Source: Opisthocomus hoazin (lineage: Eukaryota > Chordata > Aves > Opisthocomiformes > Opisthocomidae). Taken from it: 64,000 nt of DNA. Positions 1 to 64,000 of this stretch are shown piece by piece. Below the pieces are notes generated by a model. That model saw nothing but the letters and a program-made list of their open reading frames with translations. It did not search any database and was not told where the DNA came from. The translations under genes were made by a program, and so were the position numbers. Each line of letters begins with the position of its first letter. Within the stretch, counting starts at the first letter, position 1. Location of the stretch: NCBI RefSeq assembly GCF_030867145.1, contig NC_134428.1:19385537-19449536 (forward strand). Direction: 5' to 3'.

Positions 1-643
1 CAGAGGTAAGGGAGAACAGTCTAGGGAAGAACTCTGGTATCTTGGAAGACTTCTTAACTGCCATGCCTTCAATATTTGGCAAGAACTACTTGACACACAA
101 GGCTAATGTGAATAAATGTCTTGATCTTTACATATATTAAAAAAATATTCTGTATACCTTAGGATTCCATCGACATCTTTGCTTCTGGTCGTGAAAGTGA
201 GCTGGAAAAGCAAATGGCCTTTCTGTCTGAGAGATACCATCACCTTGATGAAAAATATAGCAAAGTGATGCTTCTACTCCAGAACCTTCAAGATCAGGTT
301 GCCCAGAAAAGTGACAAAAGCGAAACATTGACGCTAATACGAAATATGATGGGTCAACATCCTCAAGATGCGAGACTGGAGCAAAAGGTAAGATAGTCAG
401 TTGTTGGTGCTTTTGGGTGGTGATCGACGTATCCTGTTTTAGTAATGCAGATTGCTAGCCATTTGATTCAGGCTTGCGTCCAATTTTGTGAGCAAAAGTG
501 ATTTGCAGCCTTTTCTGCGGGATCTAGAGTTGCAGATCCTCCAGAAGATCGCTCTCCATATGTCTGTGACAAGCCAAAAGCTAACATCTGCAGTAGTAAC
601 AAAGGCTGTGACTAATGCAGGGGTTCGTGGAATCACAGAAGCG

Positions 644-1185
644 GTGAGTGAGTTGAAGTTCTCGCAAGTTCAACTAAAACCGTCAGGAGTCCTTTTCTAG
701 GCATTTTTTGGAGCATCGCAGTCAATATAAACGTCAGTGACTTGAAGAGATGTTTAGAACATGAATTGAAATGGGGAGAACTACAGAAAATGCTTGATGA
801 AGCGTACGCTTACAGCATTGCTTGTTGCCTGTTGCGAATGTTGTTTTTTTTTTTCCAAAGTATGCTATCTTGAAAATTGCAGAATTCCCAAAAAAACAGC
901 TATACCAAAGCAATGCAGCTCAGGGTCTGGGGAAGGTGGGGGAAAGAATGCAACTTTTGAAGAAAGCACCAGTCAATATGCAGTATGAATTTGTATTTTA
1001 AGCCAAAAAACCATGCACTAAAAATGGCCTCTGTCTTGAGAGAGGCTTTCAAAGACTTGCGATGGAGTGCAGCATCTCAAAAAGATGCTTATTCTACATG
1101 TATACAGATGTGTATAGATCAATTACTTTATCAGTTGATATTATTAAATTCTTCCCTTCCTCCCCTTCTGTGTGTATATCTGTAG
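644..1185 (+). other. SUN1 intron (unit 1)
   Basis: Donor gtgagt, acceptor tctgtag. It contains a T-run near 840-854 and no recognisable exon or repeat. The equivalent stretch in each unit is the same. Confidence 0.8.
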
Positions 1186-1270
1186 CAAGTCCAGACTATT
1201 GTAAACAATGCCCTGAAACTTTTCTCTCAAGACAAGACTGGTATGGTGGATTTCGCCTTGGAATCTGGAG

Positions 1271-1619
1271 GTAAATAGTGGAGGAAACTCCACTTTCACG
1301 ATTCGTGTTATTTTATAGTATCTACTAAAAATGTCAGAAGATCTGCTTGCGTGGGGTGTACGCACCACTGAACTCGCTAGGGAAAATGTGTATGTTTTAG
1401 CCCTCTGAGGTGAAAAACCTTGAACATGCTGAAAAGAACACTGTACTTGATAGAAGCATTGTATCCCCAGCCAATGACTAGACTTGAACAGTATCTTTAC
1501 TAGTTGGTTTTGAGGAAAAGAACTGGTATGTTCACGAAGCTTTGTACAAATCTCTGGCTGAAAAGTCTTCAGGAAGAAATGAGTAATTATTTCGGCTAAC
1601 CTGATACCTCTTTTTTAAG
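1271..1619 (+). other. SUN1 intron (unit 1)
   Basis: Donor gtaaat, acceptor cctcttttttaag. Nothing else recognised. The minus-strand frame crossing its end is a shadow of the SUN exon. Confidence 0.8.
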
Positions 1620-1735
1620 GTGGCAGCATTCTGAGTGCTCGCTGTTCTGAAACCTATGACAGCAAAACAGCAGTGATCAGCCTCTTTGGAATTCCTCTGT
1701 GGTACCTCTCTCAGCCTCCAAGGGCGGTGATTCAG

Positions 1736-2222
1736 GTAATTAAAGGCCGAGTGAAGAAATTCAGCAATGTTATTTTGTGCTGAGGGGTTTGGATTGTTTC
1801 TTGGATGCTGGATGTTTCTGTCTGCAACACACTGTGGGGCACGGGTCCTTTGAACGATGTTCCCAAGAGTGCCATTCTTCTGGTAGTTCCTGGGCACTGC
1901 TCAAGTCGTCTTCTAGCAAAACAAAGACCCTGCTAGGAGGCTTGGGTGGTACACTGGACTTCTGCAGAGTGTGAGCACTGGGAAGGTTCCTGTTGTGAAG
2001 TAGTCTCCAGGCGGATCTTCAAAACGCTGCTGGGTGTTTGGGTGGATGTGCTGTCTCCCTGAAGGATGCTACCAAATAGATTATATTCTGCCACTTACTC
2101 TCTAAGACTGTCCCTAATAATTCAGAATTCGCCACAACTCTTTCTGGCAAAATGCTTGTGGCTGCAGGTTTTGTTGTTGCTGTTGTGTTCCATCCTGTTC
2201 TCTCCCCTTTCCTCCTGTCTAG
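1736..2222 (+). other. SUN1 intron (unit 1)
   Basis: Donor gtaatt, pyrimidine-rich acceptor cccctttcctcctgtctag. No repeat recognised. Confidence 0.8.
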
Positions 2223-2390
2223 CCGGACGTGTATCCAGGAAACTGCTGGGCTTTCAAAGGATCACAGGGGTATCTCGTAGTTCGACTTTCAAGGAAGATC
2301 TATCCGACTGCCTTTACGTTGGAACACATCCCAAAAGCACTTTCAGCAACAGGAGAGATCTCCAGTGCTCTGAGGAGCTTTGCAGTATAT

Positions 2391-3229
2391 GTAAGTCTGT
2401 CTGTGAACTTCAGAGGATATTTGTATGCATAAAGAATATTTGTGGCGCAGATCTTGGAAAATAAGGACTGAAGGGAGGACAGCTAAGGAGAGAAACTGCT
2501 TGCTTTTAAAATTGCTGTTTTTGTAATCAGCTTTGAGATTAGGAATAAGAAGTGTTGCAGCTAATTTTGAGGGAGCTGTTTCTTTTTTTCCTGCTTTATA
2601 CAGTAGTAAATATTTTTGGAGGGAGGTGACTGTTTTTGATTTGGTATCGTTCTTTCAGGCACTGGAACTGTTCCATCCTTCCACCACTCCTACTGCTTAC
2701 CCTCTCCCTCCCCAGTGTTGGCTTTGCATCTTGTCTGTGATGTGCCTTCAGTGTGTTTTAAATTGATTTTAACTAGCACCACAGCTGCTTAGGCAGGACT
2801 GCAGAACAGAAGACCACAGGCTACATCAGAGTGTAGCTGTGATCCCTGAGAACATTTGTCTAGCTCCATTAAATGCTGAAGCCGCCGTCTGCAAGCATCT
2901 GAATCTTGGCTTCCGTCTTGTTTGTGATGTTGCTGTTTTCTCATTCTTGTTTGTCCTGAGCAGTTTACATTGTCCACTGCGATCTTGGTTGTGCCATGGA
3001 AATGATGGGGTTTGACCATGAAAACAGCAACATACAAACATAGCACAGCTCTTTGCAGTTCAGGAAAGTCAAATGCAGAGCTGTGGCTGAAGAAGCATGA
3101 AGTTCCACGGGAAGTATTCTGATCTCGGTTTCAGAGACTTGCGTTGACAGGCAGTTAGGTAGGCATGCTTCTGGCTTTGGTTTGACTTGAAATGTGATGG
3201 AAGCAAACGTCTTTCTCCTGTTGTTGTAG
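2391..3229 (+). other. SUN1 intron (unit 1)
   Basis: Longest intron within the SUN domain (839 bp), donor gtaagt, acceptor ttgttgtag. Several short open frames on both strands have no recognisable protein similarity. Confidence 0.8.
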
Positions 3230-3322
3230 GGTCTAGATAATGAATATCAAGAAGGCGGCAAGCTTCTAGGACAGTATGTCTACGACCAAGACGGAGAACC
3301 ACTGCAGACCTTTCCAGTGATG

Positions 3323-3777
3323 GTAAGTCTGGATGAGAAGATTTCAAGTGTCAGAAGAAGCACACACATATTTTCTAGGGTAGTGCACAATGAGCAGTGA
3401 AGGAAAAAGGCTTCATTCTCTGTTGGGCACCGTAGAAACTGAGGTGGAAAGTAGCTACTGATCTGCCTCAAAACCTAAGGTTCGGATAGTTTAGAGGGGA
3501 GGAAAGTTTTGTGCCAGGTGGACACAAGTGGTGTGAAGATACCGAACGTATGAGGAGTCTGCTTCATGCTGCTTCTGACTCCCTTCACAAAAAAAACCCC
3601 AACAAACCGGTTGTAAGGCAAAGAAGGTTCTGTTCCAAGTGGCAGAAGGTTCCCAAGGCATCACTCAGTTGTTAATCAAAGTTGGTAGTTGCAGGAATGA
3701 AGGAAAGCGCCTTCAGTTGCACCTGTTTATACTCCAAACCGAACTCTGGTTTGTGTGTTTGTTTTTTCCTTCTGCAG
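3323..3777 (+). other. SUN1 intron (unit 1)
   Basis: Donor gtaagt, acceptor tttttccttctgcag. It contains a caaaaaaaacccc run near 3588-3600 and no repeat I recognise. Confidence 0.8.
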
Positions 3778-3984
3778 GAGAAAAGTGAAAACGCATTCCA
3801 AATAGTGGAACTGAGAGTGTTTTCTAACTGGGGACATCCGGAATATACCTGCCTTTATCGGTTCAGAGTGCATGGGAAACTTGCCGAATAATCTCCAGCA
3901 CTTCAGCTTGGACTGGTTTTACGGTTGTGCATTTTGTTCTCGATTTTTGTATATGCCGGAAAGCCTAGAAGACTGGAATCTTGC

Positions 3985-4665
3985 CTTTTTCTTCATGGAG
4001 GCAGTCGTGATGCGTGGGGCTGACTGCCTAGGTCTGGGCAAGCCCGTGCGTGGGCCTTCGTCCGCCTCGTCATTTGCCTGCCCCTCCGGTTCCATTGCCT
4101 CATACCTATTGCGTCAGGGCACCTGGTGTGGAGAGGGAGGCCAGGAGGGGATTCGCCTGCCGCCCCGAGCAGGGACCCGTTTCCATTCCCCGCTGTCTCT
4201 CAGGTGCTCTCCTTCAGCCTGGTGGCGAGAGGGCAGGGGATCTTCTGCTTCTTGCGGAACATCCATCCTGTGCGCTTGTTTCGGGGGTGGCAGGGCATGG
4301 CTCCACCAGTCTATTTCCCCCTCGCACTCCCTGATGCTCCTGAACCTTTCTGCCTCCTCTTTAAGCTCTGCCACCAGGACGAGCAGATCATCCACCTGGT
4401 CACAGCGCACGCAGGCATTCTGCCTGCTGCCCTCCCATACCAGTGACAGGCTCGGGCACTCCCTGCAGCCAGAGACCTGCACAGCTGCCTGTTTATGCGG
4501 GAGCTCTGTCTGGGTCGCCGTATTCCGCCTGGTGACGGCTTTCAGGCGAGTGGAGACCCTAGCTACTAGCTGAGCAAGTGATGACCACCGGCTGAATTTA
4601 CCCCGGTAGCTGTCCGAGCGTCGGGGCCCTGCCTGCGCCAGCTGCCGTGCCAACTGCCGTGCCAA
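3985..4665 (-). CDS. CR1 ORF1 N-terminal part, inverted, unit 1
   Basis: On the minus strand from the ATG at 4665 the frame encodes a basic N-terminus with a short ARQL repeat. A zinc-finger-like Cys pattern follows (CRECPSLSL, then CVRCDQVDDLL), then a coiled coil (LVAELKEEAERFRSIRECE) and a Pro-rich linker. This is the layout of CR1 ORF1 proteins. A TGA at 4114-4116 interrupts it where the family reads QVPLRNRYEAL, and homology runs on to about 3985. The GDSL esterase domain typical of CR1 ORF1 is missing. Confidence 0.6.
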
Positions 4666-4675
4666 TTGCTGTGGC
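4642..4675. repeat. 12-bp repeat inside the inverted CR1, long allele (unit 1)
   Basis: Two tandem ctgccgtgccaa units plus a partial, degenerate third. On the minus strand each unit adds four residues (ARQL-like) near the CR1 ORF1 start. Confidence 0.8.
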
Positions 4676-4948
4676 AGGCCCTGTTTGCCTGTCCTGGTGG
4701 CCGCACTGCGGGTCGCTCGTGCTCCCTCGGGGCTGCTTTTGTGAGGGGGGAGGGTGCCGCCGTCACTCTTGACCCCGCTCTTCTTTGGGGGAGGGTGGTT
4801 TGGGGGGGCACGCTCTCTCTCGCCAGGCGGCTGTCTCGGCTGTTGTGCCGCTGAGAAAAGGTTTCCCCGGTGCGATCACTCGCTCCGGAGCCCTTCACTG
4901 TGCGGTCTGTTCTTCTCTGCTGCCTCCAAACTGACAAGATGCTGTTGA

Positions 4949-6196
4949 GAGGATGCAGAGAAGGCAGAGCTACTGAATGCCTTCTTTGCTTCAGTCTTCA
5001 GTGCCAAGGCAGGCCCTCAGGAATCCCAGGCCCCGGAGGTAAGAGAGGAAGCCTACAGAGAGGATGACTTTCCCTTGGTCGAGGAGGACTGTGTGAGGGA
5101 TCGCTTAAGCGATCTGGACGTCCACAAATCCATGGGCCCCGATGGAATGCACCCACGAGTGCTGAGGGAGCTGGCGGATGTCATTGCTGAGCCACTCTCC
5201 ATCTTCTTTGAGAGGTCCTGGAGGACAGGAGAGGTGCCAGAGGACTGGAGAAAGGCCAGTGTCACTCCAGTCTTCAACAAGGGCAAGAAGGAGGACCCAG
5301 GGAACTACAGGCCGGTCAGCCTCACCTCCATCCCGGGAAAGGTGATGGAGCAGCTTATCCTGGAGGTCATCAACAAGCAAGTGGAAGAAAAGAAGGTTAT
5401 CAGGAGTAGTCAGCGTGGATTCACCAAGGGGAAATCATGCTTGACCAATCTGATAGCTTTCTACGATGACATGACTGGCCGGGTAGATGAAGGGAGAGCC
5501 ATAGATGTTATCTACCTAGACTTCAGCAAGGCTTTCGACACAGTCTCCCATAATATCGTCCTAGGGAAGCTCAGGAAGTATGGGCTGGATGAGTGGTCGG
5601 TGAGGTGGATTGAGAACTGGCTGAATGGCAGAACTCAGAGGGTTGTCATCAGCGGCGCTGAGTCTAGTTGGAGGCCGGTAACTAGTGGTGTCCCCCAGGG
5701 GTCAGTACTGGGCCCAGCCTTGTTCAACTTCTTCATCAATGACCTGGATGAAGAGTTAGAGTGTACCCTCAGCAAGTTTGCTGATGACACCAAACTGGGA
5801 GGAGTGGTAGATACACCAGCAGGCTGTGCTGCCATTCAGCGTGACCTGGACAGGCTGGAAAGTTGGGCAGAGAGGAACCTGATGAGGTTCAACAAAGGCA
5901 AATGCAGGGTCCTGCACATGGGGAGGAACAACCCCAGGCATCAGTACAGGCTTGGGGCGGACCTGCTGGAGAGCAGCTGTGCGGAGAGGGACCTGGGTGT
6001 CCTGGTGGACGACAAGTTAACCATGAGCCAGCAGTGTGCCCTGGCTGCCAAGAAGGCCAATGGCATTCTGGGATGCATCAAAAGGAGTGTGGCCAGCAGG
6101 TCGAGGAAGGTTCTCCTTCCCCTCTACACTGCCCTAGTGAGGCCTCTATCTAGAGTACTCTGTCCAGTTCTGGGCTCCCCAGTTCAAGAAAGATGA
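4949..6196 (+). CDS. CR1 ORF2 reverse transcriptase, 5'-truncated, unit 1
   Basis: Open from [17 protein letters not shown] through the RT domain. Counting from the TTG at 5075: [10 protein letters not shown] (residues 147-156), [11 protein letters not shown] (204-214) and FADD (235-238, the CR1 form of the YxDD catalytic box). The endonuclease domain is absent. The frame ends at TGA 6194-6196; the CR1 protein continues in another frame at 6234-6581 ([20 protein letters not shown] onward). One extra base near cctctatctagag, where CR1 normally reads RPHLEYC, explains the shift. It is shared by all units. Unit 1 alone has DDKLTM; the others have DDRLTM. Confidence 0.93.
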
Positions 6197-6662
6197 GGAG
6201 CTACTGGAGAGAGTCCAGCGGAGGGCTACAAGGATGGTGAGGGGACTGGAACATCTCTGCTATGAGGAGAGGCTGAGGGAGCTGGGCTTGTTCAGCCTGA
6301 AGAAGAGAAGGCTGCGAGGGGACCTAATAAATGCTTACAAATATCTGAAGGGTGGGTGTCAGGAGGATGGGGCCAAGCTCTTTTCAGTGGTGCCCAGTGA
6401 CAGGACAAGGGGCAATGAGCACAAACTGAAGCACAGGAAGTTCCGTCTGAATATGAGGAAGATTTTCTTCCCTCTGAGGGTGACGGAGCACTGGAACAGG
6501 CTGCCCAGGGAGGTTGTGGAGTCTCCTTCTCTGGAGATATTCAAGACCCGCCTGGACAAGGTCCTCTACAACCTACTGTAGGTGACCCTGCTCCGGCAGG
6601 AGGGTTGGGCTAGATGACCCACAGAGGTCCCTTCCAACCCCTACCATTCTGTGATTCTGTGA

Positions 6663-7160
6663 GATGTTTAAAGAAAAGAGTTTTAATTTTTGAAAGCGCG
6701 CGTAATGCTTGAAAGAAGAAATCAAAGTTTCTTTCCTGTATTTTTGATCACCTGCTGCAATCGCTACGCCAGTAAAACCCAAGGAGTGCCCCTTGCCCGA
6801 GGGGCAGACGCAGGGGCTTTGTTGCCAAATGCCTTCTCCCCCTTCCTCTCTCCCCCCGGCTGGGTCTCAGCGGTCTGCAATACCCTCTCCCCAGTTCGTG
6901 CCTGAGATGTTGGGGCTTGGGTTCATTCCGCTCTCTGAGCCCCCTTCCCTCAGCTGCGTCGATGGCGGCCGCGATGATGGCGGCGGAGCAGGAAGCCGTC
7001 AAAGGCGGCGGCAGGAACCGCGGCGGCGTGCAGCGCGTGGAGGGCAAGCTGCGCGCCAGCGTCGAGAAGGGCGACTGCTACGAGGCGCACCAGATGTACC
7101 GGACGCTCTTCCTCAGGTGGGGCCCGGCCCGCCGCCCTGCCCCTCCCCCCCCGGCCTTCC
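6663..7160 (+). promoter_or_regulatory. GET4 5' flank and CpG-rich start region
   Basis: Sequence between the CR1 tail and GET4 exon 1, then through the exon and the intron start. CpG density rises sharply from about 6950 to 7150 (cgtcgatggcggccgcg and onward), as at CpG-island promoters. No TATA box is obvious. It repeats at 18781-19278, 30896-31393, 43023-43520 and 55138-55635. It is the only promoter-like region I see per unit and lies upstream of the next SUN1 copy. Promoter activity is inferred. Confidence 0.5.
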
Positions 7161-7467
7161 AGAGCCTTCCCACGCACCCAGCGTAACCACATCTGTTTTG
7201 CTTTCCTGGAAGCTTCTCTTCTGATGCCATCAAATGACTATAACTTTTGTGTAAGGGAATGCTGAGACTTGGTACTGTGCCTTAGCTGTAGATGTTGATG
7301 AAAAGACTAAATCTACAAAATTCTGGTTGATGTTTTCTTTTCTGTACCGATATGTTCATCACTAGCAGCATCTGTCTGTTTTGTAGCAAAACAGTGCTGC
7401 TGATGTGTCCGTGCTGGGTTTGGAGTCTTTGGAGAAATCGGATGCAAAAGTAGCAGAGGACCTTTAG
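6962..7467 (+). pseudogene. GET4: GET4 5' fragment, unit 1 (exon 1 and one exon relic)
   Basis: GET4 is part of the BAG6-UBL4A-GET4 complex that hands tail-anchored proteins to the GET pathway. Exon 1 (6962-7116, ATG to donor gtgggg) encodes [16 protein letters not shown] then [20 protein letters not shown] and [13 protein letters not shown], almost as in human GET4. The block 7387-7467, between acceptor tctgttttgtag and gtgagg, encodes QNSAADVSVLGLESLEKSDA then KVAEDL and TAG, matching human QNSAADLSMLVLESLEKAE. The exon between them (YMSQSKH onward in human) is not found, nor are later exons, so no GET4 protein can be made. In vertebrates GET4 lies just downstream of SUN1 on the same strand, as here. 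Confidence 0.85.
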
Positions 7468-7683
7468 GTGAGGTGACTTTTGCACTCGCTTTGACGTTGC
7501 TCAGATGTGCTTTGAGTTGGAGACTGGTAACAACAGTCACTGTGCAACCTGAAATGCTTTTTGTATGCCCTCCCAGATGGCTAAGGGTTACCTTCGTCAT
7601 AGCAATGGACTGGGGGACAACTCGATTAGAGAATAGTGGGTTCCTGATAACTTTGTGGGCATGCTTAGAACAATTTTTCCTGT

Positions 7684-7926
7684 CAGATTGTGCCAGGGGA
7701 GGTTTAGAGGAGATACTGGGATAGATATCTTCACTGAAAGGGTTGTCAAGCATTGGCACAGGCTGCCCAGGGAAGCGGCTGAGTCGCCATCCCTGGAGGT
7801 ATTTAAAAGACTTGTAGATGTGGTGCTCAGGGACATGGTTTAGTGGTAGACTTGGCGGTGTTATCTTCATGGTTGGACTTGATGATCTTCAAGGTCTTTT
7901 CCAACCTAAATGATCCCGTGATTCTA
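7684..7926 (+). mobile_element. CR1 3'-end fragment at the GET4/SUN1 junction, unit 1
   Basis: A 5'-truncated CR1. One frame encodes FRGDTGIDIFTERVVKHWHR then LPREAAESPSLEVFKRLVD, the CR1 ORF2 C-terminus. It is followed by the typical 3' region (ggttggacttgatgatctt, ccaacctaaatgat) and one gtgattct. It is from a different CR1 subfamily than the composite element. It lies between the last GET4-like block and the first SUN1-like exon, where the duplication breakpoint should be. Confidence 0.88.
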
Positions 7927-8061
7927 CAATACAAATGACATTATTACTTTGTAATGTTCTGGGGTCTTTAACGCTTGTGTTTTTGTTTAGGATTTTGGGG
8001 AGAAGGAGCTGCTTTCATTGACAATATTGTGCTCAGCTCTTTTTTTTTATTATTTTTTTAG

Positions 8062-8292
8062 AAACAAAAGCCCCAGGAACGTTGGAAATAACGTGTGACA
8101 TTTCTGTACATCCCTGTGGCCCAAGAAGGGACAGACGCCTTAAGAAAGCTAGCCTATAACACTGGAGAAAAGCACCGGAGCGTTTAGATTCTTGGGTCAC
8201 AATGCTGGGTGGTTCTAGAAGCTGGTCTTCTGCTGCGCAGTGCCCTGTAGCAAGGAGCTCGGCTCAGCTACGCAGCAGTGTTTCCTTCGAGT
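8062..8292 (+). CDS. SUN1: Candidate SUN1 exon upstream of the transmembrane exons (copy B)
   Basis: This 231-nt block follows a strong acceptor (tattttttttag) and ends at a consensus donor (gtaagt at 8293). In copies C, E and F it is open in exactly the frame that joins the next exon (last base T plus GG gives Trp). The encoded sequence is basic and Ser/Trp-rich (RRDRRLKKASLEHWRKAPE, then SRSWSSAAQ). I cannot align it confidently to known SUN1, so its identity rests on splice signals, frame and position. In copies B and D the Glu codon after SerLeu is TAA. A Met codon follows the stop, in the stretch TMLGGS. Confidence 0.5.
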
Positions 8293-9265
8293 GTAAGTAT
8301 GAGGCTTCTGCTTGAGGCTAAACTTCTGTTTTAGTACGTTTCTTTCCTGCCGATTCCTCTGTTTAATCTGTTAGTGATTGCCTTGTGTTGCTGATTTGCC
8401 TTGATTGTAAGTTTTCCTGGGGGTTCTGAGAGAATCAAATGTCGAAGTGCGGAGTAGAGTTCCTGGGGTAATGATGGGAAGCTTGTCTGCCTGTAAACTT
8501 GCCTCTGTAGGATAAACCAGAGAGAAAGGGATGAAAGACAAAACCATTTTTTGATTTGTTCAGAGTTAAAGATTTGTAATGATTGAGAGATGAAGAAATC
8601 TTTTAAAAACACTTGTTTTTTTTTAAACTCCTGGTAGTTAAACTAGTGTAGCTAAAGTAGGGAGGTCTTGAAGTGTCTTCAAGTGGGGAAGTTGCTTCTG
8701 GGTTGGCGTGTATGAACGTGTGTCCTCATCTTCCCTCTTTCCCCATCCATGTTTCCGTTCTGCCCTCAGACGTGTGCACGTACTCACTCTTTTGTTTTAG
8801 ATGTCTGCCTGCTGGAAATTCACAGTCCAGTGAGTAAACTTGATTTACTGGTGTGGTCAGCATCAGGACGCGTTGCACAGTCAAGTGAATGTGCCAGGCA
8901 AACGTATATGTGATGCAGCACCGTAGATTGTATAGATGTAATTCTCTGTTGTCATCTGTGCATAGAGTACTGTATTTGAAGAATGGTAAACACGTAGCTT
9001 GTCTTTGCAAAGCCAAAGGAAAAGCTTTCTCTTGTTTGTGCGTAGCCAGAAGTGTGTTTCAACTTAACATACCTTCACCTGACAGTTTCAAATTCGTGGC
9101 ACTGCAGTGTTTCCTGAGGGGGTTTTTGTCTGTGGCTGGCTGGTTTGTTTTTGCAAGGAGGTACAAGTATGCTTTTCTGGAACCTACTTTTTTCGTTGAA
9201 GAGGAGAATACTTTACGTAGACAATACTCCAGGTGTTGTGTAGGAGAAGATCAACAAATGACTAT
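8293..9265 (+). other. SUN1 intron, first part (unit 1)
   Basis: Non-coding sequence between the candidate 5' exon and the short CR1 tail. A 29-bp block at 8801-8829 is flanked by tttgttttag and gtgagt, but including it would break the SUN1 frame, so I do not call it an exon. Confidence 0.65.
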
Positions 9266-9326
9266 ATCATAGAATCATAGAATCGTACGTTGGAAAAGAC
9301 CTCTAAGATCATCAAGTCCAACCGTC
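9266..9326 (-). mobile_element. Very short CR1 3' tail, reverse orientation, unit 1
   Basis: About 61 bp beginning atcatagaatcatagaatc and continuing ttggaaaagacctctaagat then catcaagtccaacc. This is the reverse complement of a CR1 3' end with its octamer repeats. The 9-bp sequence aatgactat directly flanks it on both sides (9257-9265 and 9327-9335), suggesting a target-site duplication. It lies in a SUN1 intron. Confidence 0.85.
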
Positions 9327-10506: not shown

Positions 10507-10600
10507 GGAGGGCAGCTTCTGGCATGTACAGGTTACTCAGAACTGGATGGTATCAACTTGCTACTCTGATGTCTTTTCTCAAGGTGTTTCTTCTAAAGAG
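10507..10600 (+). CDS. SUN1: SUN1 exon: start of the transmembrane region (copy B)
   Basis: Acceptor tttttgtcttctag, donor gtgtgt (gtgcgt in copies C, D and F). Read with the first two bases completing a codon, it encodes GWYQLATLMSFLKVFLLKR. This aligns with the human SUN1 segment I recall as GWYQLVTLISWLNVFLLTR, just before and into the inner-nuclear-membrane anchor. The longer open frame through this exon in another register is a shadow. Confidence 0.85.
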
Positions 10601-10712
10601 GTGTGTATCCTTTGAGAAAAGTGTTTTGTGAGCAAATGATTTACCCAGTTATAAAACAATACAAGAGGAGAAATGTGTTGTTTCATGTGAACTTTCCTCT
10701 TTCTTTCTCTAG

Positions 10713-10771
10713 ATGCCTTCCAAAGACCTACAAGCTGTTCCTGTTTCTTCTGCCGCTCCTGTTTCCACTAG
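10713..10771 (+). CDS. SUN1: SUN1 exon: hydrophobic membrane segment (copy B)
   Basis: 59 nt between a pyrimidine-rich acceptor (tttctttctctag) and donor gtacgt. It encodes CLPKTYKLFLFLLPLLFPL, a clear membrane-spanning segment matching the SUN1 CLRNICKFLVLLIPLF region. Phases fit both neighbours: AG plus A completes Arg, and the final G plus GT completes Gly. Confidence 0.88.
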
Positions 10772-12135: not shown

Positions 12136-12292
12136 GTAAGGGAGAACAGTCTAGGGAAGAACTCTGGTATCTTGGAAGACTTCTTAACTGCCATGCCTTC
12201 AATATTTGGCAAGAACTACTTGACACACAAGGCTAATGTGAATAAATGTCTTGATCTTTACATATATTAAAAAAATATTCTGTATACCTTAG

Positions 12293-12517: not shown

Positions 12518-12580
12518 GTAAGATAGTCAGTTGTTGGTGCTTTTGGGTGGTGATCGACGTATCCTGTTTTAGTAATGCAG

Positions 12581-52379: not shown

Positions 52380-52467
52380 TCTCCAGCACTTCAGCTTGGA
52401 CTGGTTTTACGGTTGTGCATTTTGTTCTCGATTTTTGTATATGCCGGAAAGCCTAGAAGACTGGAAT

Positions 52468-55137
52468 CTTGCCTTTTTCTTCATGGAGGCAGTCGTGATG
52501 CGTGGGGCTGACTGCCTAGGTCTGGGCAAGCCCGTGCGTGGGCCTTCGTCCGCCTCGTCATTTGCCTGCCCCTCCGGTTCCATTGCCTCATACCTATTGC
52601 GTCAGGGCACCTGGTGTGGAGAGGGAGGCCAGGAGGGGATTCGCCTGCCGCCCCGAGCAGGGACCCGTTTCCATTCCCCGCTGTCTCTCAGGTGCTCTCC
52701 TTCAGCCTGGTGGCGAGAGGGCAGGGGATCTTCTGCTTCTTGCGGAACATCCATCCTCTGCGCTTGTTTCGGGGGTGGCAGGGCATGGCTCCACCAGTCT
52801 ATTTCCCCCTCGCACTCCCTGATGCTCCTGAACCTTTCTGCCTCCTCTTTAAGCTCTGCCACCAGGACGAGCAGATCATCCACCTGGTCACAGCGCACGC
52901 AGGCGTTCTGCCTGCTGCCCTCCCATACCAGTGACAGGCTCGGGCACTCCCTGCAGCCAGAGACCTGCACAGCTGCCTGTTTATGCGGGAGCTCTGTCTG
53001 GGTCGCCGTATTCCGCCTGGTGACGGCTTTCAGGCGAGTGGAGACCCTAGCTACCAGCTGAGCAAGTGATGACCACCGGCTGAATTTACCCCGGTAGCTG
53101 GCCGAGCGTCGGGGCCCTGCCTGCGCCAACTGCCGTGCCAACTGCCGTGGCAGGCCCTGTTTGCCTGTCCTGGTGGCCGCACTGCGGGTCGCTCGTGCTC
53201 CCTCGGGGAGCTTTTGTGAGGGGGGAGGGTGCCGCCGTCACTCTTGACCCCACTCTTCTTTGGGGGAGGGGGGTTTGGGGGGGCACGCTCTCTCTCGCCA
53301 GGCGGCTGTCTCGGCTGTTGTGCCGCTGAGAAAAGGTTTCCCCGGTGCGATCACTCGCTCCGGAGCCCTTCACTGTGCGGTCTGTTCTTCTCTGCTGCCT
53401 CCAAACTGACAAGATGCTGTTGAGAGGATGCAGAGAAGGCAGAGCTACTGAATGCCTTCTTTGCTTCAGTCTTCAGTGCCAAGGCAGGCCCTCAGGAATC
53501 CCAGGCCCCGGAGGTAAGAGAGGAAGCCTACAGAGAGGATGACTTTCCCTTGGTCGAGGAGGACTGTGTGAGGGATCGCTTAAGCGATCTGGACGTCCAC
53601 AAATCCATGGGCCCCGATGGAATGCACCCACGAGTGCTGAGGGAGCTGGCGGATGTCATTGCTGAGCCACTCTCCATCTTCTTTGAGAGGTCCTGGAGGA
53701 CAGGAGAGGTGCCGGAGGACTGGAGAAAGGCCAGTGTCACTCCAGTCTTCAACAAGGGCAAGAAGGAGGACCCAGGGAACTACAGGCCGGTCAGCCTCAC
53801 CTCCATCCCGGGAAAGGTGATGGAGCAGCTTATCCTGGAGGTCATCAACAAGCAAGTGGAAGAAAAGAAGGTTATCAGGAGTAGTCAGCGTGGATTCACC
53901 AAGGGGAAATCATGCTTGACCAATCTGATAGCTTTCTACGATGACATGACTGGCCGGGTAGATGAAGGGAGAGCCATAGATGTTATCTACCTAGACTTCA
54001 GCAAGGCTTTCGACACAGTCTCCCATAATATTGTCCTAGGGAAGCTCAGGAAGTATGGGCTGGATGAGTGGTCGGTGAGGTGGATTGAGAACTGGCTGAA
54101 TGGCAGAACTCAGAGGGTTGTCATCAGTGGCGCTGAGTCTAGTTGGAGGCCGGTAACTAGTGGTGTCCCCCAGGGGTCAGTACTGGGCCCAGCCTTGTTC
54201 AACTTCTTCATCAGTGACCTGGATGAAGAGTTAGAGTGTACCCTCAGCAAGTTTGCTGATGACACCAAACTGGGAGGAGTGGTAGATACACCAGCAGGCT
54301 GTGCTGCCATTCAGCGTGACCTGGACAGGCTGGAAAGTTGGGCAGAGAGGAACCTGATGAGGTTCAACAAAGGCAAATGCAGGGTCCTGCACATGGGGAG
54401 GAACAACCCCAGGCATCAGTACAGGCTTGGGGCGGACCTGCTGGAGAGCAGCTGTGCGGAGAGGGACCTGGGTGTCCTGGTGGACGACAGGTTAACCATG
54501 AGCCAGCAGTGTGCCCTGGCTGCCAAGAAGGCCAATGGCATTCTGGGATGCATCAAAAGGAGTGTGGCCAGCAGGTCGAGGAAGGTTCTCCTTCCCCTCT
54601 ACACTGCCCTAGTGAGGCCTCTATCTAGAGTACTCTGTCCAGTTCTGGGCTCCCCAGTTCAAGAAAGATGAGGAGCTACTGGAGAGAGTCCAGCGGAGGG
54701 CTACAAGGATGGTGAGGGGACTGGAACATCTCTGCTATGAGGAGAGGCTGAGGGAGCTGGGCTTGTTCAGCCTGAAGAAGAGAAGGCTGCGAGGGGACCT
54801 AATAAATGCTTACAAATATCTGAAGGGTGGGTGTCAGGAGGATGGGGCCAAGCTCTTTTCAGTGGTGCCCAGTGACAGGACAAGGGGCAATGAGCACAAA
54901 CTGAAGCACAGGAAGTTCCGTCTGAATATGAGGAAGATTTTCTTCCCTCTGAGGGTGACGGAGCACTGGAACAGGCTGCCCAGGGAGGTTGTGGAGTCTC
55001 CTTCTCTGGAGATATTCAAGACCCGCCTGGACAAGGTCCTCTACAACCTACTGTAGGTGACCCTGCTCCGGCAGGAGGGTTGGGCTAGATGACCCACAGA
55101 GGTCCCTTCCAACCCCTACCATTCTGTGATTCTGTGA
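52468..55137 (+). mobile_element. Composite CR1 LINE with inverted 5' part, unit 5
   Basis: Inverted ORF1 open stretch 52602-53141 (minus); RT frame 53424-54671 with Ser in FFISDLDEE (as unit 2) and Lys in SRKVLL (as unit 1); continuation 54709-55056. Confidence 0.85.
53130..53151. repeat. 12-bp repeat, short allele (unit 5)
   Basis: Short form; the preceding triplet reads caa instead of cag. Confidence 0.8.
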
Positions 55138-55436
55138 GATGTTTAAAGAAAAGAGTTTTAATTTTTGAAAGCGCGCGTAATGCTTGAAAGAAGAAATCAA
55201 AGTTTCTTTCCTGTATTTTTGATCACCTGCTGCAATCGCTACGCCAGTAAAACCCAAGGAGTGCCCCTTGCCCGAGGGGCAGACGCAGGGGCTTTGTTGC
55301 CAAATGCCTTCTCCCCCTTCCTCTCTCCCCCCGGCTGGGTCTCAGCGGTCTGCAATACCCTCTCCCCAGTTCGTGCCTGAGATGTTGGGGCTTGGGTTCA
55401 TTCCGCTCTCTGAGCCCCCTTCCCTCAGCTGCGTCG

Positions 55437-55940
55437 ATGGCGGCCGCGATGATGGCGGCGGAGCAGGAAGCCGTCAAAGGCGGCGGCAGGAACCGCGGCG
55501 GCGTGCAGCGCGTGGAGGGCAAGCTGCGCGCCAGCGTCGAGAAGGGCGACTGCTACGAGGCGCACCAGATGTACCGGACGCTCTTCCTCAGGTGGGGCCC
55601 GGCCCGCCGCCCTGCCCCTCCCCCCCCGGCCTTCCAGAGCCTTCCCACGCACCCAGCGTAACCACATCTGTTTTGCTTTCCTGGAAGCTTCTCTTCTGAT
55701 GCCATCAAATGACTATAACTTTTGTGTAAGGGAATGCTGAGACTTGGTACTGTGCCTTAGCTGTAGATGTTGATGAAAAGACTAAATCTACAAAATTCTG
55801 GTTGATGTTTTCTTTTCTGTACCGATATGTTCATCACTAGCAGCATCTGTCTGTTTTGTAGCAAAACAGTGCTGCTGATGTGTCCGTGCTGGGTTTGGAG
55901 TCTGGAGAAATCGGATGCAAAAGTAGCAGAGGACCTTTAG
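55437..55940 (+). pseudogene. GET4: GET4 5' fragment, unit 5
   Basis: Exon 1 at 55437-55591 is intact. The relic at 55862-55940 has the two-base loss. Confidence 0.83.
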
Positions 55941-56156
55941 GTGAGGTGACTTTTGCACTCGCTTTGACGTTGCTCAGATGTGCTTTGAGTTGGAGACTGG
56001 TAACAACAGTCACTGTGCAACCTGAAATGCTTTTTGTATGCCCTCCCAGATGGCTAAGGGTTACCTTCGTCATAGCAATGGACTGGGGGACAACTCGATT
56101 AGAGAATAGTGGGTTCCTGATAACTTTGTGGGCATGCTTAGAACAATTTTTCCTGT

Positions 56157-56399
56157 CAGATTGTGCCAGGGGAGGTTTAGAGGAGATACTGGGATAGATA
56201 TCTTCACTGAAAGGGTTGTCAAGCATTGGCACAGGCTGCCCAGGGAAGCGGCTGAGTCGCCATCCCTGGAGGTATTTAAAAGACTTGTAGATGTGGTGCT
56301 CAGGGACATGGTTTAGTGGTAGACTTGGCGGTGTTATGTTCATGGTTGGACTTGATGATCTTCAAGGTCTTTTCCAACCTAAATGATCCCGTGATTCTA
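56157..56399 (+). mobile_element. CR1 3'-end fragment, unit 5
   Basis: Same fragment at the same junction. Confidence 0.88.
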
Positions 56400-57738
56400 C
56401 AATACAAATGACATTATTACTTTGTAATGTTCTGGGGTCTTTAACGCTTGTGTTTTTGTTTAGGATTTTGGGGAGAAGGAGCTGCTTTCATTGACAATAT
56501 TGTGCTCAGCTCTTTTTTTTTATTATTTTTTTAGAAACAAAAGCCCCAGGAACGTTGGAAATAACGTGTGACATCTCTGTACATCCCTGTGGCCCAAGAA
56601 GGGACAGACGCCTTAAGAAAGCTAGCCTAGAACACTGGAGAAAAGCACCGGAGCGTTTAGATTCTTGGGTCACAATGCTGGGTGGTTCTAGAAGCTGGTC
56701 TTCTGCTGCGCAGTGCCCTGTAGCAAGGAGCTCGGCTCAGCTACGCAGCAGTGTTTCCTTCGAGTGTAAGTATGAGGCTTCTGCTTGAGGCTAAACTTCT
56801 GTTTTAGTACGTTTCTTTCCTGCCGATTCCTCTGTTTAATCTGTTAGTGATTGCCTTGTGTTGCTGATTTGCCTTGATTGTAAGTTTTCCTGGGGGTTCT
56901 GAGAGAATCAAATGTCGAAGTGCGGAGTAGAGTTCCTGGGGTAATGATGGGAAGCTTGTCTGCCTGTAAACTTGCCTCTGTAGGATAAACCAGAGAGAAA
57001 GGGATGAAAGACAAAACCATTTTTTGATTTGTTCAGAGTTAAAGATTTGTAATGATTGAGAGATGAAGAAATCTTTTAAAAACACTTGTTTTTTTTTAAA
57101 CTCCTGGTAGTTAAACTAGTGTAGCTAAAGTAGGGAGGTCTTGAAGTGTCTTCAAGTGGGGAAGTTGCTTCTGGGTTGGCGTGTATGAACGTGTGTCCTC
57201 ATCTTCCCTCTTTCCCCATCCATGTTTCCGTTCTGCCCTCAGACGTGTGCACGTACTCACTCTTTTGTTTTAGATGTCTGCCTGCTGGAAATTCACAGTC
57301 CAGTGAGTAAACTTGATTTACTGGTGTGGTCAGCATCAGGACGCGTTGCACAGTCAAGTGAATGTGCCAGGCAAACGTATATGTGATGCAGCACCGTAGA
57401 TTGTATAGATGTAATTCTCTGTTGTCATCTGTGCATAGAGTACTGTATTTGAAGAATGGTAAACACGTAGCTTGTCTTTGCAAAGCCAAAGGAAAAGCTT
57501 TCTCTTGTTTGTGCGTAGCCAGAAGTGTGTTTCAACTTAACATACCTTCACCTGACAGTTTCAAATTCGTGGCACTGCAGTGTTTCCTGAGGGGGTTTTT
57601 GTCTGTGGCTGGCTGGTTTGTTTTTGCAAGGAGGTACAAGTATGCTTTTCTGGAACCTACTTTTTTCGTTGAAGAGGAGAATACTTTACGTAGACAATAC
57701 TCCAGGTGTTGTGTAGGAGAAGATCAACAAATGACTAT

Positions 57739-57799
57739 ATCATAGAATCATAGAATCGTACGTTGGAAAAGACCTCTAAGATCATCAAGTCCAACCGTC
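57739..57799 (-). mobile_element. Short CR1 3' tail, unit 5
   Basis: Identical copy with the same flanking repeats. Confidence 0.85.
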
Positions 57800-60603
57800 A
57801 ATGACTATTTGTTTCCAGTCAGTGTGCCTGTGCCCTGGAGTTGTTTCAATCTCAGTAGAATGTGTTCGAAACTTTCAAATACCTGGCTCTTCAAACAGAA
57901 TCTTAAAATACGGTAGTACCGAAGTAGTTACCAAGCAACAGAAACGGCATAAGCTTGTAATTAGCTGCTTTCAAGTCAGATGGGAGGTAAGAAAAGGTGC
58001 AGTTGTCATTCATATTTAGTTTGCTGCTCCCGTGGCAGAATGCTTTTCACTGTCTGTTACCCTACTACATTGACGTCTGAATGTATGGATCTGTTTCTGT
58101 TCATGTAGTGGACTGCAAAATGCATTCAATACCAATCATAAAGTGGCTTTTCTTTGCAGTATTAAAATCAGTGGGACTTTTAGTGGGACTTTTACTTGGA
58201 GTTCTTGTCAGATATCGTAGTTGATTGTGGCGCTTCCTTACTTTTGGGACCAATTTTTTTTTTTTCTCCCCCTTGAAGGTCTTGATGGTGAAGGCAACCC
58301 TAAATTTAACTATGGTTTCATTTTCTTTCCGAGTGCATTTTATTCCATGGTGACTAGCGATGGCGATACTGATAGCAATGCACTAGAGGCTTTCGTACAA
58401 GCTTGGCACACTGCTTACCTATTAGGAAAAACAAGGTGTAGGGACAGCATACACCTTGTATGTTAGAAAGAAGAAGTCATATTGTTAATTGATTCCACTT
58501 TGGGGCAGTTGGTACACTTGACAGGTTGAAAAGCTGCCTTGAAAGGAAAGCAAGGTATGAGGTATTGGTGTGCAGAAGATTTGAATAAAGGGGTTTTAAC
58601 ATTTTATTTTTGTTCTAGTGAGAGTCAGTTTTTCCAGGAGTCTTCTAGAGGGATAGCATCTTCCCTGTGAGATGAGCGTTCGCTAGCTTGAATGACAGAG
58701 GCATCAAGAATCTGTGGAGTGCCCTTTATTCAGCAAAGGAAAATGATTTGAGACACTTCAGTCACCAAGATGCTTTGCAAAATACTGGGTTGCTAGATCT
58801 ACAGTCCCTCAGATGAAGCCAGACATATCTGCTAATCTAAAAATGTATGCGTTGGCTGTGCTCACGCATTTCTCTGCTCTGCAAAGCATTCTTGGCCACA
58901 GTTGCATGTCCCTCTGCTTGGTTCCTTTGAACACGTGCCGCAGTAATGACATTTCGCGCTACCACTTTTTGTCTTCTAGGGAGGGCAGCTTCTGGCATGT
59001 ACAGGTTACTCAGAACTGGATGGTATCAACTTGCTACTCTGATGTCTTTTCTCAAGGTGTTTCTTCTAAAGAGGTGCGTATCCTTTGAGAAAAGTGTTTT
59101 GTGAGCAAATGATTTACCCAGTTATAAAACAATACAAGAGGAGAAATGTGTTGTTTCATGTGAACTTTCCTCTTTCTTTCTCTAGATGCCTTCCAAAGAC
59201 CTACAAGCTGTTCCTGTTTCTTCTGCCGCTCCTGTTTCCACTAGGTACGTGAATCGCTTAGTTATACTACAGACCGGTGTATGCTTACTGCAGCCGTTCC
59301 AAGAGAGCGTTTTTAGTTGAGCTCTCGGTTTATGAAGAAGACGCAGAAGCAAAAAAGAGCAAGTTTGTTTGTGACTAGGGCAGCAATTCAAGCTTTCAAA
59401 GTACTGACAAGTCAGTAGCCTTCCCCTTGCCGTGAAAGGAATACCCTCAATTTAATTTCGTAGAGCTCTTTAGAAAGTGAGAGTGGGTGCGTAAATGCAC
59501 TGAAGTCCTTTTTTCTTCACCTGCCTTGATAAGAATATCAGTGAGGTCACAAAGAGCAGGTTGTGTACCGATTGCTTTGATTGTTGTTAATCTCCGTAAA
59601 AGTGGGGTTAGGTTCTTTGAGCAACTCATCCAAAGTCTTTCCCTTGCTCTGGACCATCCTTGAGTTGCTTAAAATACTGCTGTTTAGACTGGTTAGTTGA
59701 CAGTATTCCAGGCCAGCTGTCTTCTTTGAAATAAACAAACTCAGTTTCGAACACTTGCTGAAAGTGGTGGGCTGTTTCTGAAAAGCAGGTTCATGTCTTC
59801 GCATGTCCTAAAAACTTTAGAAACTACTCTGGGGAGAAGATGAAGCTTTGCAGAAACTTACAGTCAGGATTGAAAATCCTCTGTACTAGGGAGAATAAGA
59901 AAGGAAGAACTTCCCTACCCTGTGTAGAAAGTGCTGCTACTTCTTGCTAAGACAGTGCAAAAACAAGCGTCATGTTTGTGAACTGCGAGATTGCCTAATA
60001 TCTAACAAAAGTTGGAAGAAACTTGGGCTTCTGTGGAAACAATGTGGTATGTAGTACGTAGGGTACAGGGCAAGATATTTTCCATGGAGATAAAAAGCAG
60101 TTTTTTACATCTGCCTTCAGTGAGCATGGCCTGTCTTAATTGGTAAATGAGATCTAGGTCCCAGGGACGCAGTAGTATGAGATTGAGGATATACCATGAG
60201 ACATAAGCGCAAGCTGCCTGCCATACAACGGTGTGAGCGGTACTGATGGATGTTCCCCAACGTGCTTGAGTGCTTGACTTCACAGTTTGACAGCTGGCTC
60301 ATACTGATTTTTGTTTAGACTGGAGTAGTGTGCGCTGTGTGACGTCTAGCTTGCAAACTTAAGGTAGCTTGTGTCACGAAGTAGGAAGACGACCTGTAGA
60401 TCTAAGCAGTCTTCAGGGGGAATTCTCTTGAACACCCTTTTTGCCTTTTGTTTGTGATCTAGGTATATGGTTCTGGGGGTTTGATGGCTGCTTCTCACTA
60501 TTACCTTTGTTGAACTGGATCAAAATTGATAGAATACAGAGAACAGAGGACTCTCTCCGTGTTCGTGAACCGCAGGCTGATTCTTTGCACTCTGTGCAAC
60601 CTC

Positions 60604-63600
60604 CAGAGGTAAGGGAGAACAGTCTAGGGAAGAACTCTGGTATCTTGGAAGACTTCTTAACTGCCATGCCTTCAATATTTGGCAAGAACTACTTGACACA
60701 CAAGGCTAATGTGAATAAATGTCTTGATCTTTACATATATTAAAAAAATATTCTGTATACCTTAGGATTCCATCGACATCTTTGCTTCTGGTCGTGAAAG
60801 TGAGCTGGAAAAGCAAATGGCCTTTCTGTCTGAGAGATACCATCACCTTGATGAAAAATATAGCAAAGTGATGCTTCTACTCCAGAACCTTCAAGATCAG
60901 GTTGCCCAGAAAAGTGACAAAAGCGAAACATTGACGCTAATACGAAATATGATGGGTCAACATCCTCAAGATGTGAGACTGGAGCAAAAGGTAAGATAGT
61001 CAGTTGTTGGTGCTTTTGGGTGGTGATCGACGTATCCTGTTTTAGTAATGCAGATTGCTAGCCATTTGATTCAGGCTTGCGTCCAATTTTGTGAGCAAAA
61101 GTGATTTGCAGCCTTTTCTGCGGGATCTAGAGTTGCAGATCCTCCAGAAGATCGCTCTCCATATGTCTGTGACAAGCCAAAAGCTAACATCTGCAGTAGT
61201 AACAAAGGCTGTGACTAATGCAGGGGTTCGTGGAATCACAGAAGCGGTGAGTGAGTTGAAGTTCTCGCAAGTTCAACTAAAACCGTCAGGAGTCCTTTTC
61301 TAGGCATTTTTTGGAGCATCGCAGTCAATATAAACGTCAGTGACTTGAAGAGATGTTTAGAACATGAATTGAAATGGGGAGAACTACAGAAAATGCTTGA
61401 TGAAGTGTACGCTTACAGCATTGCTTGTTGCCTGTTGCGAATGTTGTTTTTTTTTTTCCAAAGTATGCTATCTTGAAAATTGCAGAATTCCCAAAAAAAC
61501 AGCTATACCAAAGCAATGCAGCTCAGGGTCTGGGGAAGGTGGGGGAAAGAATGCAACCTTTGAAGAAAGCACCAGTCAATATGCAGTATGAATTTGTATT
61601 TTAAGCCAAAAAACCATGCACTAAAAATGGCCTCTGTCTTGAGAGAGGCTTTCAAAGACTTGCGATGGAGTGCAGCATCTCAAAAAGATGCTTATTCTAC
61701 ATGTATACAGATGTGTATAGATCAATTACTTTATCAGTTGATATTATTAAATTCTTCCCTTTCTCCCCTTCTGTGTGTATATCTGTAGCAAGTCCAGACT
61801 ATTGTAAACAATGCCCTGAAACTTTTCTCTCAAGACAAGACTGGTATGGTGGATTTCGCCTTGGAATCTGGAGGTAAATAGTGGAGGAAACTCCACTTTC
61901 ACGATTCGTGTTATTTTATAGTATCTACTAAAAATGTCGAAAGATCTGCTTGCGTGGGGTGTACGCACCACTGAACTCGCTAGGGAAAATGTGTATGTTT
62001 TAGCCCTCTGAGGTGAAAAACCTTGAACATGCTGAAAAGAACACTGTACTTGATAGAAGCATTGTATCCCCAGCCAATGACTAGACTTGAACAGTATCTT
62101 TACTAGTTGGTTTTGAGGAAAAGAACTGGTATGTTCACGAAGCTTTGTACAAATCTCTGGCTGAAAAGTCTTCAGGAAGAAATGAGTAATTATTTCGGCT
62201 AACCTGATACCTCTTTTTTAAGGTGGCAGCATTCTGAGTGCTCGCTGTTCTGAAACCTATGACAGCAAAACAGCAGTGATCAGCCTCTTTGGAATTCCTC
62301 TGTGGTACCTCTCTCAGCCTCCAAGGGCGGTGATTCAGGTAATTAAAGGCCGAGTGAAGAAATTCAGCAATGTTATTTTGTGCTGAGGGGTTTGGATTGT
62401 TTCTTGGATGCTGGATGTTTCTGTCTGCAACACACTGTGGGGCACGGGTCCTTTGAACGATGTTCCCAAGAGTGCCATTCTTCTGGTAGTTCCTGGGCAC
62501 TGCTCAAGTCGTCTTCTAGCAAAACAAAGACCCTGCTAGGAGGCTTGGGTGGTACACTGGACTTCTGCAGAGTGTGAGCACTGGGAAGGTTCCTGTTGTG
62601 AAGTAGTCTCCAGGCGGATCTTCAAAACGCTGCTGGCTGTTTGGGTGGATGTGCTGTCTCCCTGAAGGATGCTACCAAATAGATTATATTCTGCCACTTA
62701 CTCTCTAAGACTGTCCCTAATAATTCAGAATTCGCCACAACTCTTTCTGGCAAAATGCTTGTGGCTGCAGGTTTTGTTGTTGCTGTTGTGTTCCATCCTG
62801 TTCTCTCCCCTTTCCTCCTGTCTAGCCGGACGTGTATCCAGGAAACTGCTGGGCTTTCAAAGGATCACAGGGGTATCTCGTAGTTCGACTTTCAAGGAAG
62901 ATCTATCCGACTGCCTTTACGTTGGAACACATCCCAAAAGCACTTTCAGCAACAGGAGAGATCTCCAGTGCTCTGAGGAGCTTTGCAGTATATGTAAGTC
63001 TGTCTGTGAACTTCAGAGGATATTTGTATGCATAAAGAATATTTGTGGCGCAGATCTTGGAAAATAAGGACTGAAGGGAGGACAGCTAAGGAGAGAAACT
63101 GCTTGCTTTTAAAATTGCTGTTTTTGTAATCAGCTTTGAGATTAGGAATAAGAAGTGTTGCAGCTAATTTTGAGGGAGCTGTTTCTTTTTTTCCTGCTTT
63201 ATACAGTAGTAAATATTTTTGGAGGGAGGTGACTGTTTTTGATTTGGTATCGTTCTTTCAGGCACTGGAACTGTTCCATCCTTCCACCACTCCTACTGCT
63301 TACCCTCTCCCTCCCCAGTGTTGGCTTTGCATCTTGTCTGTGATGTGCCTTCAGTGTGTTTTAAATTGATTTTAACTAGCACCACAGCTGCTTAGGCAGG
63401 ACTGCAGAACAGAAGACCACAGGCTACATCAGAGTGTAGCTGTGATCCCTGAGAACATTTGTCTAGCTCCATTAAATGCTGAAGCCGCCGTCTGCAAGCA
63501 TCTGAATCTTGGCTTCCGTCTTGTTTGTGATGTTGCTGTTTTCTCATTCTTGTTTGTCCTGAGCAGTTTACATTGTACACTGCGATCTTGGTTGTGCCAT

Positions 63601-64000
63601 GGAAATGATGGGGTTTGACCGTGAAAACAGCAACATACAAACATAGCACAGCTCTTTGCAGTTCAGGAAAGTCAAATGCAGAGCTGTGGCTGAAGAAGCA
63701 TGAAGTTCCACGGGAAGTATTCTGACCTCGGTTTCAGAGACTTGCGTTGACAGGCAGTTAGGTAGGCATGCTTCTGGCTTTGGTTTGACTTGAAATGTGA
63801 TGGAAGCAAACGTCTTTCTCCTGTTGTTGTAGGGTCTAGATAATGAATATCAAGAAGGCGGCAAGCTTCTAGGACAGTATGTCTACGACCAAGACGGAGA
63901 ACCACTGCAGACCTTTCCAGTGATGGTAAGTCTGGATGAGAAGATTTCAAGTGTCAGAAGAAGCACACGCATATTTTCTAGGGTAGTGCACAATGAGCAG
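60604..64000 (+). repeat. Tandem array unit 6 (partial, cut by window end)
   Basis: First 3397 bases of a sixth unit, ending in the SUN1 intron before the last coding exon. No sign of array end or unique flank. Private changes include GTG for GCG near 61406 and gtacactg for gtccactg near 63575. Confidence 0.97.

Follow-up and report, generated by a model that had tools for sequence, protein, structure and literature searches.

The DNA stretch analyzed here (the window; 64,000 nucleotides, C15:19,385,537-19,449,536) comes from contig NC_134428.1 (C15) of the Opisthocomus hoazin genome assembly (GCF_030867145.1; 1.48 Gb in 415 contigs). It consists of head-to-tail repeat units that combine parts of two neighboring genes, SUN1 and GET4. 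Judged from the sequence, the window is best explained as part of a young, mostly neutral, macrosatellite-like array of SUN1-GET4 gene fragments, rather than of working genes, and we put the probability of this reading at roughly 0.76. The core units are nearly identical, exchange sequence with one another, lack exons needed for either gene, and carry coding exons without signs of purifying selection.

Tandem Organization and Extent of the Array

Self-BLAST of the window found direct repeats of base 1 at positions 12131, 24247, 36362, 48489, and 60604, with identities of 99.69, 99.67, 99.73, 99.67, and 99.68%, respectively, in alignments that span 3.4-51.9 kb with 0-5 gap openings each. The 12.1-kb tandem period is real, and chance is excluded; an earlier note on this DNA, which had described the window as an array of a unit of about 12.1 kb, had all five offsets exactly right. 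For comparisons among units, eight core units were used, namely, five of the window and three to its left. Most of the difference in unit length comes from a 12-bp minisatellite near 4637-4673, whose copy number varies by unit. Other length variants are 1-bp insertions/deletions (indels) at 1311 and 4733, an 8-bp indel at 6645, and a 2-bp indel at 7428, which falls within the GET4 exon-3-like piece.

The whole array occupies approximately C15:19.294-19.733 Mb (about 440 kb) in a head-to-tail but mosaic arrangement, and the window is part of its homogeneous core. The sequence read covers C15:19.2000-19.4495 Mb (249.5 kb) and 19.700-19.750 Mb. Copy counts of exons come from genome searches and are lower bounds; exons of SUN1 are given in our own numbering (S1-S18), in which S5 was assigned by a weak match. 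Window 1-3000 had 38 matches on C15 (19,286,797 to 19,732,375), including three pieces of the parental SUN1, and a single match elsewhere (C8, 71%). Exon S16 was found at least 32 times on C15, as 31 array copies, all on the plus strand, and the parental gene; 28 of the array copies have no stop codon inside this exon and three have one. Exon S7 occurs in at least 29 places (including the parental gene and one partial match), GET4 exon 1 in at least 21 array copies plus GET4 itself, and SUN1 exon 2 in at least 14 places (including the parental gene and two partial matches). The genome search found no SUN1 exon 2 between 19,341,000 and 19,532,309, and therefore none in the 12.1-kb core. Outside C15, exon S16 matched on C8 (68%), C9 (46%, one stop), and C300 (two matches, 50%). 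The two C300 matches (3004-3171 on the plus strand and 13330-13497 on the minus strand) are SUN-domain exons in opposite orientation, possibly of a duplicated other SUN gene.

According to the starts of the window 1-3000 matches, units are spaced at ~12.1 kb for 13 steps from 19,349,148 to 19,523,086, with one 16.3-kb step among them. Toward SUN1 the steps are 14.7 and 23.3 kb, and toward GET4 they are 17.2, 17.5, 6.2-6.3 kb, and longer. Core copies match this query at 99-100% and flank copies at 94-99%. We read the spacing and the identity gradient as those of an array that is probably expanding and homogenizing in its center. As in macrosatellites, multi-kilobase units stand head to tail in tens of copies at one locus.

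Parental Genes at the Array Edges

The flanks were searched with human SUN1 and GET4 protein sequences. The left edge is the parental SUN1, with the ATG exon at 19,271,294 and the last exon ending at ~19,293,948. The right edge is GET4, with matches at 19,733,331-19,744,571 that cover human GET4 except for approximately residues 25-50, which are hidden by a run of 68 N at C15:19733406-19733473 in exon 1. This is the sole N run in the two stretches read and lies outside the array. The parental SUN1 is apparently intact, with no stop among the exon matches listed. Since SUN1 forms the left edge and GET4 the right edge, the array sits between two neighboring genes. Both are on the plus strand, and a tandem copy of the interval therefore puts the start of GET4 ahead of the tail of SUN1. 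The unit, which had been called chimeric, is so in this plain sense only.

Gene Content of the Core Unit

A core unit contains SUN1 exons S7-S10, the tail of S13, and S14-S18, followed by a fragment of a CR1-type long interspersed nuclear element (LINE), GET4 exon 1, a GET4 exon-3-like piece, and sequence of SUN1 intron 1 (Table 1). When joined, the SUN-domain exons of window unit 1 matched PF07738 (5.2e-46), and their best solved-structure match was SUN1 (6r15, 1.5e-101). GET4 exon 1 of the unit aligns to human GET4.

The core units lack SUN1 exons S1-S6, S11-S12, and the start of S13, as well as GET4 exon 2 and ~225 bp of GET4 upstream DNA. Unit 1 aligns to the parental SUN1 solely from intron 1 (19,275,363) onward, and the SUN1 start exon was matched at 19,271,294 only, among the matches listed. 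A functional SUN1 needs a start exon and nucleoplasmic N-terminal exons, and a functional GET4 needs its full exon set; the core units have neither, the GET4 part being exon 1 and the exon-3-like piece only. Because SUN1 exon 1 and the N-terminal exons, GET4 exon 2, and the proximal upstream DNA are lost, the core is not an array of intact genes of the linker of nucleoskeleton and cytoskeleton (LINC) complex. Intact SUN1 copies in the core are ruled out, as the match to the parental gene begins in intron 1 and exon 2 is absent. The tandem amplification of a SUN1-GET4 segment proposed in the earlier note is supported, but what is repeated is not a set of intact LINC-complex genes, and a full GET4 exon 1 is missing from the left-flank units.

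Immediately ahead of the start codon, 4 nucleotides in the core unit stand in place of 229 (79% GC) in GET4, and the right-edge copy and a truncated exon-1 piece on the left are likewise short there. The unit is mostly CpG-poor (observed/expected 0.44), and GET4 exon 1 within it remains CpG-rich. The exon-3-like piece is 79 nucleotides long in seven of the eight core units, 81 in the other, and, by reading, 83 in the right-edge copy, compared with 82 in GET4, and is thus drifting. It retains AG and GT in all eight core units.

Origin of the Joint and the Flank Units

The joint, which is common to the core and right-edge units, runs from GET4 intron 3 (19,738,194) through ~80 bp of CR1-like sequence into SUN1 intron 1 (19,275,363). 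We detected no homology between the two parental breakpoint regions (1.4 kb each compared). We therefore rejected a founding event in which similar repeat copies recombined; end-joining or replication slippage may have been at work instead. The core and right-edge units also carry the CR1 insertion at 4949-6660, and a clean empty site for it was found upstream of GET4 and in one left-flank copy. Because the GET4 upstream DNA and the left-flank copy are without this element, CR1 entered after the first duplication.

The left-flank units (~19.296-19.349 Mb) jump from unit position 4893 to 11195 and carry SUN1 exon 2; they may have arisen by deletion or from duplications of their own. The truncated GET4 exon-1 piece near 19,295,868 is joined to position 11599.

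We suggest that the stretch between SUN1 intron 1 and GET4 intron 3 was duplicated in tandem, perhaps through one of these two mechanisms, and that unequal crossing-over and gene conversion then multiplied and homogenized the units. A 12.1-kb deletion form would have taken over the center, leaving older, longer units at the sides. The units presumably make no required protein, and the genes at the edges would carry the functions of SUN1 and GET4. Transcription of some units is possible.

Divergence and Exchange Among Units

The eight core units differ at 95 variable sites in ~12.1 kb, plus indels. Of the 1035 pairs formed by the 46 informative sites, 421 fail the four-gamete test. Units that are near each other are more alike, and distance along the array is a moderate predictor of how far two units have diverged (Mantel r = 0.47, p = 0.018). 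Exchange between units (concerted evolution) is evident from these patterns, as in a macrosatellite.

Divergence of the parental SUN1 from the core is 0-3% per 300-bp bin between position 571 and the end of SUN1, and 1.7-11% in the other bins. The low divergence over the 3' part hints at gene conversion between the core and the 3' exons of the parental gene. At a neutral rate of ~2 × 10−9 per site per year, 2-3% divergence would correspond, very roughly, to some 5-7 million years and 0.3% to less than 1 million years.

A separate cluster of differences was found in the last ~48 nucleotides of S10 (window 340-387; C15:19286958 onward), where approximately 10 substitutions distinguish the parental SUN1 from all 12 array copies listed, which are from the left part of the array. 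The array form looks closer to human SUN1, and the change may therefore have occurred in the parental gene.

Coding Potential and Alternative Explanations

Among the core units, the exons have seven variable sites in 1508 nucleotides, compared with 11.8 expected, a small deficit. The claim that introns and exons are conserved alike is thus roughly borne out. Relative to the parental SUN1, exons S14-S18 of 18 copies (three incomplete) have 24 nonsynonymous and four synonymous distinct substitutions in 573 nucleotides. The neutral expectation for this ratio is 2.5-3.3 to 1, and the excess of nonsynonymous changes is not significant (one-sided p = 0.07-0.20). Exon S16 contains a stop in two of these copies, and the SUN exons of one copy carry a 1-base indel. 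For S7-S10, 13 nucleotide differences between the parental gene and the window fall in codons that change the amino acid and five in silent ones. No purifying selection on the coding exons was seen in either set. Selection on protein was weighed as the cause of the similarity and was not accepted, in view of the exon variability and the substitution counts. The suggestion that the similarity reflects recent amplification or exchange agrees with the identities, the variable sites, the substitution ratios, and the four-gamete results.

Several observations weigh against a neutral array of fragments. The number of exonic variable sites in the core is lower than expected. GET4 exon 1 is stop-free in all 21 array copies, of which 18 encode exactly the query protein; its high CpG content could mean a used, unmethylated promoter. 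Exon S7 is also stop-free in all 29 places, and the GET4-SUN1 fusion frame described below is open at every core junction tested. In addition, the left-flank units have other joints and are without a full GET4 exon 1, which is first found at 19,356,116, and the reading of C15:19.4495-19.700 Mb is confined to three 6-kb loci. Youth and exchange can explain the retained open exons, the CpG content, the fusion frame, and the low exon variability, and the argument from the retained exon 1 is countered by the truncated piece at the left edge, which is changed around the start codon. The identical exon-1 copies include those at 19,588,101 and 19,646,765, where the window 1-3000 matches reach only 97-98%.

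The units could instead be members of a gene family for short, chimeric SUN proteins, in which GET4 exon 1 provides the start and a 51-residue nuclear-side tail, in phase to S8 in core units or to SUN1 exon 2 in longer units, of a membrane SUN protein that is perhaps made in the germ line. GET4 exon 1, SUN1 exon 1, and S7 each end in phase 2 (by reading). Splicing of GET4 exon 1 to S8 would yield a 386-residue frame that is open at seven of seven core junctions, and a frame of 360 residues that begins at an ATG in S7 is likewise open at seven of seven. In the longer units, GET4 exon 1 is by reading in phase with SUN1 exon 2, only if the exon-3-like piece is skipped. The retained CpG and open state of exon 1 fit this explanation as well. 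However, the 386-residue frame requires skipping of the exon-3-like piece and S7, both with intact splice sites, and both paths omit the truncated S13. When the exon-3-like piece and S7 are included, the GET4 frame stops at codon 74-78 in seven of seven core junctions, and inclusion of the truncated S13 brings a stop at codon 205. The DNA directly before the start codon (~225 bp) is lost, and no purifying selection is seen. We therefore regard such proteins as unlikely. The broader idea of a young gene family of SUN proteins with a GET4-derived N-terminus would include the 386-residue core form and, from the longer units on the right side, an almost complete SUN1 whose first exon has been exchanged. 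SUN1 tethers telomeres in the germ line, where such a family might be expressed and where its copy number could act on meiosis; on the sequence at hand, we hold this to be very doubtful.

Returning to the array of fragments, its repeats might largely be an artifact of assembly, created where one real unit or a few were passed through again and again or where haplotypes were mis-joined. The run of 68 N at the right edge would fit such an origin, but the 249.5-kb left stretch is free of N, and the 95 variable sites and the indels include both private and shared variants. There are also several unit length classes, a more diverged flank, and a clean empty site for CR1, and window 1-3000 has no match outside C15 other than the 71% one on C8. 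These features lessen the worry without closing it, and an artifact appears quite improbable. A role in making regulatory RNA or special chromatin has been proposed for human macrosatellites such as DXZ4, and the array could likewise be kept for such a role and not for protein, which would overlap partly with the explanation that we prefer. The CpG-rich GET4 exon 1, repeated in 21 array copies of a mostly CpG-poor unit, is what this proposal would build on; no positive evidence for it was seen, although conserved noncoding elements were not sought, and we consider it the most improbable of these explanations.

Annotated Features and Other Observations

Table 1. Repeat units of the window and features of the core unit. 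Positions are those of the window.
Feature	Position	Strand	Evidence
Repeat unit 1, core type, 12,130 bp	1..12130	+	self-BLAST
Repeat unit 2, 12,116 bp	12131..24246	+	self-BLAST
Repeat unit 3, 12,115 bp	24247..36361	+	self-BLAST
Repeat unit 4, 12,127 bp	36362..48488	+	self-BLAST
Repeat unit 5, 12,115 bp	48489..60603	+	self-BLAST
Repeat unit 6, interrupted by the window end	60604..64000	+	self-BLAST
SUN1 exon S10, coiled-coil region; repeated in other units	163..387	+	
SUN1 exon S13, 3' part; true acceptor and S11-S12 lost at the 475/471 deletion junction	472..643	+	
SUN1 exon S14	1186..1270	+	
SUN1 exon S15	1620..1735	+	
SUN1 exon S16, SUN domain	2223..2390	+	
SUN1 exon S17, SUN domain	3230..3322	+	
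SUN1 exon S18, last exon, with stop codon	3778..3891	+	
LINE fragment, presumably CR1 type	4949..6660	+	reverse transcriptase PF00078, 3.1e-33
GET4 exon 1 of 51 codons with a phase-2 end; observed/expected CpG 1.24	6962..7116	+	
GET4 exon-3-like piece with indels, 81 nucleotides in this unit; GET4 exon 2 deleted before it	7387..7467	+	
Joint: GET4 intron 3 to ~7684, ~80 bp CR1-like tail, SUN1 intron 1 from 7764	7597..7764	+	
SUN1 exon S7, membrane-region exon	10507..10600	+	
SUN1 exon S8, hydrophobic, starts in phase 2	10713..10771	+	
SUN1 exon S9, straddles the unit boundary	11990..12135	+	

No Rfam match at the gathering score was found in window 1-13000, and no tRNA gene was found in the window. 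An antisense open frame of 253 amino acids lies at window 4117-4875 on the minus strand; it may resemble open reading frame 1 of bird CR1 elements, but its sole Pfam hit is below the curated cut-off.

Elsewhere in the genome, dense feather-keratin clusters occur on both strands at C3:1.26-1.69 Mb, C26:7.4-8.2 Mb, and C30:3.1-3.3 Mb, with many equal scores. For feather-type keratin, 150 of the 314 candidates were scored and all 150 were above the cut-off, with none in the 14 control genomes. Such abundance points to a bird genome, with the caution that related keratins occur in other sauropsids.

Significance and Comparison With Known Systems

This locus offers a readable case of macrosatellite birth, in which both parental genes, the joint, the CR1 insertion and its empty site, intermediate units, and a homogenized core are found together. 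It is also a warning for gene annotation, as fragments whose SUN-domain exons are open could raise the apparent number of SUN1 genes in this genome. Expression of any unit, should it occur, could yield a truncated SUN protein that disturbs LINC complexes.

The SUN1-derived parts of the core resemble the single-copy gene, differing by 0-11% per 300-bp bin, introns included. Unlike single-copy SUN1 and GET4, the core has no SUN1 exon 1 or other N-terminal exons, only part of the coiled-coil exons, and no GET4 exon 2. Macrosatellites and gene-family arrays are known in humans, e.g., RS447/USP17L, DXZ4, and TBC1D3. These arrays are similar in having multi-kilobase units, many copies, and exchange among copies, but are made of other genes, and we claim no sequence kinship.

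No SUN1 array was found among the titles and opening abstracts listed by literature searches in which most subscription journals are missing. In passages of one report, SUN1 appears only as a mammalian meiotic protein (PMC10687773), and in passages of another, SUN1 and GET4 are not mentioned (PMC9974502). The latter describes two related cases in chicken. The dot chromosomes contain testis amplicons such as OR29G, with 386 intact copies, which are likewise amplified gene-bearing repeats in an avian genome; these amplicons are located in pericentromeric heterochromatin, and many of them are expressed in testis (PMC9974502). The HINT1W array on the W chromosome has a 5,648-bp unit in 52 tandem copies (PMC9974502). 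We read gene-bearing macrosatellites as a kind already known in birds from these examples, while for the SUN1-GET4 locus itself these searches listed no report. HINT1W is similar in being a multi-kilobase, gene-bearing, head-to-tail array in a bird, but its unit holds the complete gene and lies on the W chromosome (PMC9974502), whereas the SUN1-GET4 units are broken fragments of two genes that lie on a 26.8-Mb contig, between the parental genes.

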